DNA from: an uncultured Bdellovibrionales bacterium
GTDB lineage: Bacteria > Bdellovibrionota > Bdellovibrionia > Bdellovibrionales > UBA1609
NCBI GenBank assembly: GCA_903833275.1
Contig: CAILEP010000006.1
Location: 175,027-239,026, forward strand
Direction of reading: 5' to 3'
Length of the DNA: 64,000 bases
The stretch's first letter is position 1. Each line of letters begins with the position of its first letter. The notes beneath the pieces are model-generated. The model was given only the letters and a program-made list of their open reading frames with translations. It made no database searches and was not told the DNA's origin. Of this stretch, positions 5,113-7,229 are shown piece after piece. The translations under genes were made by a program, and so were the position numbers.

Positions 5113-5188
5113 AGGGGCTTAGCTCAGTTGGTAGAGCGCTACCCTTACAAGGTAGATGTCGTGGGTTCGAATCCCCCAGCCCCTACCA
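5113..5188 (+). tRNA. tRNA-Val (anticodon UAC)
   Basis: 76 bases that fold as a tRNA with encoded CCA. The acceptor stem pairs AGGGGCT with AGCCCCT, the D stem GCTC with GAGC, and the anticodon stem CTACC with GGTAG around the loop CTTACAA, giving anticodon TAC (reads GUA valine codons). The T arm GTGGG-TTCGAAT-CCCCC has one T-C mismatch. The 3' end from AGCCCCTACCA onward is shared with the right border of the repeat element that starts immediately downstream. Confidence 0.96.
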
Positions 5189-5498
5189 AAACTTTTTAAT
5201 CACCTTTCATGCTTCGTTGCCCCGCCGTTCGCTTCGCTGCGACGTACGTTTACGTACGCCTCACTCGCTTCGTCGGTAACGCCTCGCCTGAAAGGTGATT
5301 AAAAAGTTTTGTGATAGTGCTTCGGGCTTGGGCTTGACGAGCGGCTGAGCGAGGCAAGGCCTCGCGAGCGAGCGGTCGTGTGGTTCGACCGAAATAGCAG
5401 GATGCTATTTCGGAGTGAGCGCAAAGTGCGAACCCGTAGCGATGCGAAGGGCTAGGCGCAGGAAGCGCCGAAGCATTCCCCAAGCCCCTACCAAACTT
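5178..5498 (+). repeat. structured non-coding repeat, copy A, joined to the tRNA-Val 3' end
   Basis: A GC-rich ~300-bp element starting in the last bases of the tRNA. It has four parts. (1) A perfect 23-bp inverted repeat, 5187-5209 with 5289-5311. (2) Between its arms, a region with a self-complementary hairpin CGTACGTTTACGTACG (5243-5258) and CTTCGTTGC-type motifs. (3) A 64-bp core, 5315-5378, identical to copy B, with an internal GCGAGGC-AAG-GCCTCGC hairpin. (4) A variable segment with a perfect 10-bp inverted repeat (CCGAAATAGC / GCTATTTCGG, 5389-5413), ending in CCGAAGCATTCCCCAAGCCC (5468-5487). AGCCCCTACCAAA(A)CTT occurs at both borders (5178-5194 and 5483-5498). The frame open on the minus strand across it has no gene-like features, so I treat it as non-coding. 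Confidence 0.85.
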
Positions 5499-5601
5499 CA
5501 CGAATTTATTTAAGCGCTATCCAAAATTTAGTAAGACCGGAGTCGCCTAAAGCATCCATAACTTGATTGTTTAGATTGCGAAGTGGAAGTGTTTCGCGAA
5601 T

Positions 5602-5949
5602 CTAAAAGCTGTCCTTATCGACTTCATGGACCCATATACGAAATAGTTTTGGATAGTCTTTAAAAACAACTAAAGCGAAAAAACCTCCGAAACTATTTTG
5701 TTCGGTTTCTAATAGCAAAAATTTAGTCTTTTTAGTGGCTATTATTTGCTTGAGCTCATTAGAGATTTTGTCTTTATACAATTGAACATCCAGGCCCTTT
5801 TGTATGGCTAATGCTTCTGGTGACGACTGCTATTTGGATAAGCAGCTTGCTTGGAGGGAAATTGGGCGCTCATCTTGAGCGCGACAAAATCCAATAATTG
5901 AATATGTATTTACGAAAAAAAATAGAGCTAAGATTAATGCAACTTTCAT
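5602..5949 (-). pseudogene. secreted-protein gene interrupted by an in-frame TAG
   Basis: The ATG at 5949 opens a signal peptide (KVALILALFFFVNTYSIIGF) that stops at a TAG (5830-5832) after 39 residues. The same frame continues past the TAG for another 75 codons with ordinary protein-like composition (SSPEALAIQKGLDVQLYKDK, FGGFFALVVFKDYPKLFRIW) to a TAG at 5602-5604. The joined product would be about 115 residues: signal peptide plus a small exported domain. A single C-to-T type change or similar would explain the break. A hairpin-like repeat (AGATTGCGAA / TTTCGCGAATCT) lies just beyond the end and could be its terminator. The family is not recognised. Stop-codon readthrough is possible but less likely than decay. 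Confidence 0.6.
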
Positions 5950-5962
5950 ATCGACTAATCCT

Positions 5963-6088
5963 CTATAAAAATATGGTTGCCATGAAGAGTAATCCAGTGG
6001 CCTCCGACGGCGAGGTGGTTTCGCTTTTAATCCAGGCATCTACATTCGATGTTTTTTTTGAGGGCTTTGCAGCGGTTTTTTTACCCAT
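5963..6088 (-). CDS. small basic protein of unknown function (41 residues)
   Basis: Too short for most gene finders but has a good start: ATG at 6088, five bases after AAGGAG. The product begins with a lysine-rich, alanine-rich segment (GKKTAAKPSKKTSNVDAWI) and ends with a short hydrophobic tail (TGLLFMATIFL). That layout could be a tail-anchored small membrane protein, or the C-terminal remnant of something larger. It lies 31 bases downstream of the antitoxin-like gene on the same strand and 13 bases before the broken secreted-protein gene. Support is limited to the ribosome binding site and composition. Confidence 0.4.
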   Translation of the reverse strand: MGKKTAAKPSKKTSNVDAWIKSETTSPSEATGLLFMATIFL

Positions 6089-6119
6089 TTGTGCTCCTTG
6101 TTTATGATCAGAGTAGAAA

Positions 6120-6425
6120 CTACCGCGCGATCTTAAATTCAACCTTGGGGTTAATGGTCTCATTATAAGCAATGAGTTTGTCAGTCGAGACTTTGTCGAT
6201 TCGATGATTAACGACTTCGCTGACGCGAGCCTGGTCAATGCCAAGCAATTTTGCAAACTCAACTTGCGATAAGTTTTTTTGAGCCATAAACCGCACCAAG
6301 TTTTGGCAGAGCTCCCAGCGGAATTTCTCTGCCGAAGTTGAGCTGGGGCCGACCATTAGAGTGCCCTCAATTTTGTTTAATTTGGCGTCCATCTCTTTTA
6401 GTTTACTTTTGCTAGGGTAGCCCAT
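6120..6425 (-). CDS. XRE-type helix-turn-helix protein, probable antitoxin
   Basis: 101 residues. Residues about 45-95 hold a classic helix-turn-helix: NLVRFMAQKNLSQVEFAKLL, GIDQARVSEVVNHRIDKVST, DKLIAYNETINPKVEFKI. This resembles the XRE/HTH_37 antitoxins paired with HigB- or RelE-like toxins, which are encoded second in the pair. It begins two bases after the stop of the 97-residue gene at 6428-6721, so the two are cotranscribed and likely translated together. Inference: it binds the partner toxin and autoregulates the operon. The N-terminal 40 residues (SKLKEMDAKLNKIEGTLMVG) look like a short coiled coil, unusual for the family. Confidence 0.75.
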   Translation of the reverse strand: MGYPSKSKLKEMDAKLNKIEGTLMVGPSSTSAEKFRWELCQNLVRFMAQKNLSQVEFAKLLGIDQARVSEVVNHRIDKVSTDKLIAYNETINPKVEFKIAR

Positions 6426-6427
6426 TT

Positions 6428-6721
6428 TTATCTCCTATAGGCATTTACAATGCCGACAAAAATCTCGTTGTCGTGCAGCAGCCAAATGAGTTTATAAAAC
6501 AGCCCATCTTGCTCCATATGATCATTCACAAAATAAAGGTAACCGTTTTCATCCTTGTCGATTGGCCCAAATGTTTTGCCGTCAAGCTGATTGACCAGCG
6601 CAAGAATCGTTTCATCCGTTACAGAGTCTGCGTGCTTTTCTTCATAATGCGGGTCAATGACAACTTTCTGAAGATCCCGACCATTGACGTTTAATTTTAC
6701 CAGATACTCACGCCGACTCAT
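6428..6721 (-). CDS. small protein paired with an XRE antitoxin, probable toxin
   Basis: 97 residues, ATG at 6721 overlapping the stop of the upstream gene (ATGA). The product has the size and mixed alpha/beta pattern of RelE/HigB/BrnT-like toxins: HYEEKHADSVTDETILALVN, YLYFVNDHMEQDGLFYKLIW, LLHDNEIFVGIVNAYRR. The final NAYRR with nearby histidines would fit an RNase-type site, but I cannot assign it to a named toxin family. The strongest argument is context: a gene of this size directly followed by an XRE protein. It could also be a non-toxic partner of the regulator. Confidence 0.6.
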   Translation of the reverse strand: MSRREYLVKLNVNGRDLQKVVIDPHYEEKHADSVTDETILALVNQLDGKTFGPIDKDENGYLYFVNDHMEQDGLFYKLIWLLHDNEIFVGIVNAYRR

Positions 6722-6981
6722 AAATCAGAAGGTACATCATCTTGCAATATATTGCAAGATTTAAGTGGGTTTATTGTTGAACGTTTGCCGCGGACGAAGT
6801 TTGTGGATGTGCCGATGTGGGCCGCGACCCGTTTATTGGTGCCGAGCTTTAGGTATAAGGCTTTTAAATCATCAGGTGACAGCGATTTGGGTTCAGGATA
6901 TGCCTCTAGTTCGAATATAACGGTAGTTGAGCCTCGGTAGGGCGGTTCGTCTACTTGAGTGAGTTCCCTACCAAACTTCAT
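6718..6981 (-). CDS. putative helix-turn-helix protein coupled to the toxin/antitoxin pair
   Basis: 87 residues from the ATG at 6981; its TGA overlaps the ATG of the next gene, so translation is coupled. Residues about 33-60 (SLSPDDLKALYLKLGTNKRV, AAHIGTSTNFVRGKR) look like a helix-turn-helix that reads DNA or another partner. The start codon and first five codons (MKFGR) lie inside the left border of repeat copy B, so the original N terminus may have been replaced or lost when the repeat arrived. A longer minus-strand frame through the repeat to 7284 exists but is non-coding in character. Function unknown; a third component of the toxin/antitoxin operon is inference. Confidence 0.45.
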   Translation of the reverse strand: MKFGRELTQVDEPPYRGSTTVIFELEAYPEPKSLSPDDLKALYLKLGTNKRVAAHIGTSTNFVRGKRSTINPLKSCNILQDDVPSDL

Positions 6982-7229
6982 ATCCACTTCGCCATACTTC
7001 GTTACTCGCCACTCGGGCTTGGTCATGTGCCTTGGGCACACTCCCTTCGCCGCTCGTGACTCGCGCCTCGTCTGGCTCGCGTCTATGAAGTTTGGTAGTG
7101 CTTCGGGCTTGGGCTTGACGAGCGGCTGAGCGAGGCAAGGCCTCGCGAGCGAGCGGTCGAGCGGGAAATGCGTCGTGTTCGACGCGTGGGGCCCGCCGAC
7201 CAGGATGGCCCGAAGCAGTCCCCCAGCCC
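6966..7229 (+). repeat. structured non-coding repeat, copy B
   Basis: The second copy, not next to a tRNA. Its border CCCTACCAAACTTCA (6966-6980) is identical to the right border of copy A (5486-5500). A perfect 15-bp inverted repeat, 6968-6982 with 7084-7098, occupies the position of copy A's 23-bp arms but has a different sequence. Between the arms a GTGCC-TTG-GGCAC hairpin (about 7026-7038) replaces copy A's CGTACG hairpin. The 64-bp core at 7096-7159 is identical to 5315-5378. The variable part folds as nested stems GGTCG/CGACC, GCGGG/CCCGC and GCGTCG/CGACGC. The right end (7210-7229) matches copy A at 18 of 20 bases. It cuts off the sulfurtransferase pseudogene. Confidence 0.85.

Follow-up and report, generated by a model that had tools for sequence, protein, structure and literature searches.

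A palindromic repeat with a conserved core and locus-specific paired arms behind tRNA genes in Bdellovibrionales, and a neighbouring element with CsrB-type hairpin loops

Introduction

Behind a tRNA-Val gene of an uncultured Bdellovibrionales bacterium lie two palindromic repeats, copies A and B, whose arms and apical hairpins differ in sequence but still pair. What keeps them paired? The preliminary description, made from the letters of the window alone (the whole stretch of DNA that was analysed, 64,000 nucleotides), regarded changed sequence with kept pairing as the mark of selection on secondary structure. Here, we address this question with additional copies of the repeat, which we call R1, and we describe a second element, R2, located just downstream of copy A.

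Results

Copies A and B and their loci

Re-checking of the sequence confirmed the arms, hairpins and coordinates of both copies as first read (Table 1). Copy A begins within the CCA end of tRNA-Val, at its CA, and extends to 5311; copy B spans 6968 to 7098. The arms of copy A pair perfectly over 23 bp (25 of 26 when extended), and those of copy B, also perfect, over 15 bp; by our own arithmetic, a 23-bp perfect inverted repeat within ~130 nt has a chance of the order of 1e-7 in 64 kb. In both copies, 64-65 nt separate the start of the arm from the apical centre, and on the minus strand the apical hairpin of copy A is lengthened by one G.T and one G-C pair. Compared with shuffles, the tRNA together with the copy A hairpin and trailer folds with z = -4.9, and the copy B region with z = -2.6.

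Table 1. Features of the tRNA-Val locus, in window positions.
Feature	Position	Strand	Basis
tRNA-Val (UAC), CCA encoded	5113..5188	+	ARAGORN; Rfam tRNA 71.4 bits
Copy A left arm CAAAACTTTTTAATCACCTTTCA, start within CA of CCA	5187..5209	+	sequence
R1 conserved core between copy A arms, TGCTTCGTTG...TGCGAC...GCCTCAC...CGCCTCGCC	5210..5288	+	alignment A2
Copy A apical hairpin CGTACG-TTTA-CGTACG	5243..5258 (CGTACG 5243-5248 / CGTACG 5253-5258)	-	
Copy A right arm TGAAAGGTGATTAAAAAGTTTTG	5289..5311	+	sequence
Linker, common to copy B locus	5312..5374	+	repeat comparison
GTCGTGTGGTTCGA, copy of tRNA-Val variable loop and T-stem 5' strand	5375..5388	+	sequence
R2 element, T-loop position, two hairpins with CsrB-type loops	5389..5475	+	R2 match 78 bits (training sequence); z = -3.95
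R2 hairpin H1 CCGAAATAG-CAGGATG-CTATTTCGG	5389..5413	+	
R2 hairpin H3 GGCG-CAGGAAG-CGCC	5455..5469	+	
tRNA-Val 3' end, second copy (T-stem 3' strand, acceptor strand, CCA)	5476..5493	+	18/19 identical; direct score 29
15-bp direct repeat CCCTACCAAACTTCA, left copy	5486..5500	+	repeat comparison
15-bp direct repeat, right copy; copy B begins here	6966..6980	+	
Copy B left arm	6968..6982	+	
Copy B apical hairpin GTGCC-TTG-GGCAC	7027..7039 (GTGCC 7027-7031 / GGCAC 7035-7039)	+	
Copy B right arm	7084..7098	+	
Degenerate R2-like remnant behind copy B	7150..7217	+	weak match, E 0.23

The clearest tie between the two loci follows the hairpin: 72 nt that are 96% identical (5312-5383 and 7093-7164). 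Outward of the arm, copy A has the tRNA end (CTACCA-AAACTT), and copy B has CTACCAAACTTC there. The arms had been called unrelated, which holds for their differing inner parts but not for the outer CTACCAAA(A)CTT that they have in common. Direct comparison of the two cores gave no alignment above chance (score 18; null 95% = 21). The core of a further copy, behind tRNA-Ser(cga), aligns with both A and B (scores 42 and 39; null maxima 29 and 27), and for this reason we consider the cores of A and B related. The 15-bp repeat consists of the tRNA-Val end and trailer, and the ~1.47 kb that its two copies enclose (window 5501-6965) hold an HTH protein (PF13744, 6120-6425, minus strand) beside a 97-aa ORF without assignment (6428-6721, minus strand). 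This segment, which parts copy A from copy B, resembles a small cassette of toxin-antitoxin type that would have entered at the tRNA 3'-end copy.

R1 copies in the genome, in relatives and in other phyla

We built a covariance model from 19 copies and also collected further copies by BLAST. With the model, the copy number of the 3.08-Mb genome comes to 11; most of these copies were training sequences, among them copy A, matched at window 5194-5304 with 104 bits (E 7e-29). Matches occur in eight of the 47 family genomes, own genome included, with 27 in G060, 10 in G005, six each in G043 and G015, two in G055, and one each in G053 and G004. An exact-pattern scan of 84,980 species genomes returned 22 loci, from Bdellovibrionales, Thermodesulfobacteriota/Desulfuromonas/Desulfobacterales, a Nitrospirae bin and Ezakiella. 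The arms of the deltaproteobacterial R1-like copies differ again and mostly pair. Throughout, the R1 core is conserved and the arms are locus-specific, yet paired in nearly all copies. The apical motif TCGTTGCGAC..GCCTCACTC is also frequent in the Firmicute Ezakiella coagulans, where it sits in a different palindrome (L122-L139); these copies share the motif with R1 but lack long arms, and descent from a common ancestor is at most a possibility. The apical motif was not found in viral contigs, and an Rfam search of the region and 22 further loci gave no relevant family.

R1 copies cluster at tRNA 3' ends

Six of the 11 own-genome copies are located beside tRNAs: five abut 3' ends (Val, Met, Met, Pro ggg and Ser cga) and the sixth lies between the Lys and Glu tRNAs. 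By our own arithmetic, chance alone falls far short of placing five of 11 copies within ~10 nt of the 37 tRNA ends of a 3.08-Mb genome. There is also a copy behind tRNA-Leu in G004 (same genus) and behind a tRNA in G055 (same family), and G005 retains a truncated left half of R1 behind tRNA-Pro(ggg). The remaining copies follow stop codons of protein genes or are intergenic. At the same position, own-genome tRNAs without R1 (Glu, Gly gcc, Pro tgg and Leu tag) have a long terminator-like hairpin, and the stem behind tRNA-Glu (CAAAACTTTTTTTAACGACC) is closely similar to that of copy A (CAAAACTTTTTAATCACC). The R1 stem thus occupies a terminator position, but with just 3-5 T at its base, which is weak for an intrinsic terminator. 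We looked for an empty tRNA-Val site in 38 relatives and found no homologue, the flanks being too diverged. The exception is G026, from another family, which has an analogous 126-nt hairpin behind tRNA-Val with 16-bp perfect outer arms and a different core (L077). Palindromic repeats of a further family, with GATATC units, lie directly behind several tRNAs (L097, L103, L109 and L092 in G005; L026 and L047 in the own genome).

Pairing is kept and the arms appear to change as blocks

As the preliminary description had proposed, we used the additional copies to compute covariation. In the 19-copy alignment, 89.5% of cells are paired, 14 of 16 pairs changed on both sides, and the covariation score is 0.640, compared with 0.185 +/- 0.023 for shuffles and 0.10-0.211 for slid alignments. 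Further copies with unpaired arms had been named as what would speak against a selected structure; we found instead that the locus-unique arms pair in nearly all of them. Among changed cells, 76 changed on both sides versus three on one side, so the arms look swapped or regenerated as blocks rather than changed stepwise.

When an RNA evolves by stepwise compensatory change, G-U intermediates are expected. Mismatches of R1 in the tRNA sense are mainly A.C, that is, G.T on the opposite strand (18 versus 5 in the 19 copies, and 60 versus 16 in 79 matches, where the cells are not independent), and copies folded in both directions fold better on the opposite (minus) strand. The structure, if it is used, would therefore act as DNA or on the strand opposite to the tRNA transcript. 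According to published work (PMC8794818), template switching can create, repair and maintain hairpins with such a signature. Hence, the original argument stands in so far as the pairing is kept, but selection on the structure of the tRNA-sense transcript is not supported, and the palindrome-forming mechanism that the preliminary description had itself named as its alternative is now at least as likely. Against the block-wise reading, strong selection could likewise explain the missing stepwise intermediates.

Two probable sources of arms

One G060 palindrome (AGTGACTGGCGCGAAA/TTTCGCGCCAGTCACT) is present both with an 11-nt loop (L218) and with the R1 core in its loop (L215, L222), and several G060 copies are flanked on both sides by 6-bp repeats, e.g. 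TAAATA-like. In addition, an inverted copy of the tRNA's own 3' end lies behind tRNA-Leu(tag), Leu(gag) and Arg(acg) (own versus other tRNAs, permutation p < 1/5000). Two arm sources are thus supported: the core may have entered a palindrome that was already there, and flanks may have been copied in inverted form. For the right arm of copy A, we rejected an inverted tRNA copy as the source, since nothing significant was seen beyond CA and 13 of the 37 other tRNAs score equally.

R1 compared with known repeat systems

Like the REP super-families GTAG and CGTC (Di Nocera 2013, PMC3733652), R1 is multicopy, non-coding, palindromic and mostly placed after genes. Its apical hairpin is conserved across phyla, and REPs inside larger palindromes are likewise known, from three species (PMC3733652). 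Unlike REPs, which are 20-40 nt long, R1 measures ~110-130 nt, its outer stems are unique per site and it has no GTAG tag; in alignment A2, no conserved GTAG flanks either the apical or the outer stem. CGTC REPs are defined by a CGTC tag, an 8-9 bp stem beginning with A-T pairs, a CCA tail and a length of 20-40 bp. In R1, the stem starts with G-C and G.T, the length is 110-130, CGTC is found in just some deltaproteobacterial copies, the other features are absent, and the repeat is linked to tRNA 3' ends. As to a link with RAYT genes, no R1 match was found within ~1.5 kb of the seven PF01797 (Y1-type transposase) loci. Shared terminal inverted repeats, a trait of MITEs, are present in G060 and absent among the tRNA-linked copies of G000, and candidate 6-bp target duplications, seen in several G060 copies, are not evident at tRNA-Val. 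The multicopy palindromic sequences of Geobacter (PMC2700814, PMC2996986) are palindromic intergenic families of deltaproteobacteria, where R1-like copies also occur.

R2 lies inside a copy of the tRNA 3' end

Downstream of copy A, the 3' end of tRNA-Val is repeated from variable loop to CCA (5375-5493) with its T-loop expanded by 87 nt, and this insert, R2, folds into hairpins with CAGGAUG and CAGGAAG loops (z = -3.95). The same arrangement is found behind Met, Pro, Gly, Glu and Ser tRNAs, and an altered form behind Leu and Arg. More generally, nine of 31 tRNAs have their own 3' end repeated directly downstream with a score above the 99% level for mismatched pairs, where 0.3 would be expected. 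With a model built from eight sequences, we found R2 in 35 of the 140 genomes of the order and in 45 of the 290 of the phylum (E <= 1e-4), often behind tRNAs. In three genomes from other, distant families of the phylum (L286, L287 and L288), R2 lies behind tRNA-Pro(cgg) and its terminator, inside the T-arm copy of that very tRNA. Across 46 matches, in an alignment fitted to the model, H1 is paired in 97.4% of cells, and both helices together show 102 double changes. The first loop retains GGA in 36 of the 46 matches and the third loop in 37. A wobble bias in R2 (5 G.T versus 23 A.C) was discarded as uninformative, since the H3 columns are poorly aligned.

In family f8, R2 is often away from tRNAs and sometimes inside unique 31-37 bp stems; at two loci, L265 and L275, the palindrome around it is unique and perfect over 31 and 37 bp. 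Four R2 loci of this family adjoin a weak R1-like match, indicating that R1 and R2 sometimes travel together. Two tRNA loci have more elaborate layouts. At tRNA-Leu(gag) in the own genome (L053), the tRNA 3' half and terminator are duplicated ~236 nt downstream with R2 between the two terminator copies, a dual-terminator layout, and at tRNA-Ser(cga) (L046/L245/L246) the R2 unit occurs twice behind one tRNA, 689 bp apart and with identical scores.

R2 carries CsrB-type hairpin loops

In 15,178 nt of tRNA 3' flanks, all 13 hairpins with a CAGGA(T/A/C)G heptaloop lie on the sense strand (the Lys/Glu one counted under both tRNAs). The 64-kb window, used for the background count, has just two, both in the R2 element at 5389-5475. 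In hairpin loops, CAGGA(U/A/C)G is the CsrB repeat recognised by CsrA (PMC7652899), and the genome has one csrA gene (PF02599, E 1e-24). Rfam gave no CsrB, CsrC or Rsm match at E up to 5 or, depending on the search, up to 1. By its motif, R2 looks like a candidate CsrA binding site.

Discussion

The reading that we favour, with a probability of roughly 0.55, is that R1 is a non-coding, REP/MITE-like core sitting in the loop of a locus-specific stem whose arms are kept equal at the DNA level. The recognisable part of R1 would be the ~80-nt core with its apical hairpin, and the stem around it would belong to the locus, which would be why the arms differ between copies. Behind tRNA-Val and several other tRNAs, this stem would be the hairpin that starts at CCA, in the ordinary position of a terminator hairpin. 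It could be made or refreshed as a unit at the DNA level, either when the core inserts into a pre-existing palindrome or when template switching during replication copies one arm onto the other, and a terminator requirement may help to keep the pairing, rather than a long series of compensatory base changes in an RNA. What we infer from these patterns is that the core entered the loop at tRNA-Val, that template switching took place and that the stem serves as a terminator. Several findings speak against this reading. The inner arm positions (...CCTTTCA) are partly common to copies, so that the stem is not purely host sequence; perfect stems as long as 31-37 bp, seen around related elements of other genera (L265, L275), are hard to picture as pre-existing targets; the searches gave no empty tRNA-Val site, no R1 copy near a Y1-type transposase gene and no significant inverted tRNA match of copy A beyond its arm; and the 3-5 T at the stem base are weak for a terminator.

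The strong covariation of arms and apical stem, the stem start exactly at CCA and folding better than that of shuffles would all suit a functional RNA of the tRNA primary transcript, in which selection for 3' processing, CCA-end protection or attenuation keeps the pairing by compensatory changes. Nevertheless, we hold this to be very doubtful, as one-sided changes on the transcribed strand are nearly absent (3 versus 76), the G.U wobbles fall on the opposite strand, copies occur away from tRNAs (e.g. after stop codons in G005, and the 27 copies in G060) and most relatives do without R1 (present in 8 of 47 family genomes). A different possibility is that the arms are fast-changing terminal inverted repeats of the element itself, an ordinary MITE with target duplications that is mobilised in trans. 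The 27 G060 copies agree with this, as their arms are largely the same in sequence and candidate 6-bp target duplications flank several of them, and so does a RRCNGTTGAAAA-like arm common to several copies in G000, G005, G043 and deltaproteobacteria. It seems unlikely all the same: the tRNA-linked arms have no terminal inverted repeat in common except for CAAA, arms that are different at every site would be difficult for a transposase to recognise, and we found no partner transposase.

More plausible, if still on the doubtful side, is a by-product of snap-back replication, in which the core hairpin is the turn-around point and the left flank is copied inverted, so that the arms are new at each site and functionless. 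Arms that are unique and perfect at most sites point this way, as do the unique perfect stems of 31 and 37 bp around related elements, the inverted tRNA 3'-end copies behind Leu(tag), Leu(gag), Arg(acg) and one Met, and the precedent of template switching (PMC8794818). Yet empty palindromes with the same arms are present in G060, the arms begin precisely at CCA at several tRNAs, and copy A itself has no detectable inverted tRNA sequence beyond CA.

For R2, mobility and regulation both come into question. Elements of the IS200/IS605 type and palindrome-associated elements have a hairpin near each end. R2 resembles them in its hairpin at each end and its single orientation in T-arm copies, but its stems vary freely between copies and no linked Y1 transposase was found, the best match near Y1 genes reaching just 9.9 bits. 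With CsrA-sponge RNAs of the CsrB/RsmZ type (PMC7652899), R2 shares the heptaloops, two per element; it differs from them in having no Rfam match and in lying in a T-arm copy behind tRNAs. The RrA/RrB/RrF sRNAs, located between the dual terminators of E. coli rRNA operons (PMC8144298), offer another parallel as CsrA-interacting RNA after the first terminator of a stable-RNA transcript, although R2 follows tRNA rather than rRNA, at many loci, and differs in sequence and structure. On sequence evidence, R2 may act as an RNA that binds CsrA, may be mobile as single-strand DNA with a hairpin at each end, or may do both. As far as we searched, it is undescribed.

Covariation is usually taken to prove a functional RNA. 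In R1, covariation is very strong, yet single-step intermediates are almost absent and the strand is the wrong one for the transcript, which would make the repeat a clean natural case of hairpin upkeep at the DNA level. The larger lead, beside R1, is R2: it is widespread in a phylum with predatory bacteria, tied to tRNA genes, and bears the motif of a CsrA sponge. We tentatively suggest, as a conjecture that is more likely to fail than to hold, that in Bdellovibrionales and relatives R2 is a mobile element in the T-loop of a tRNA 3'-half copy, that the read-through transcript would present CsrB-type hairpins titrating CsrA, and that R1 in the tRNA terminator would set the read-through, which would tie a global regulator to tRNA transcription.
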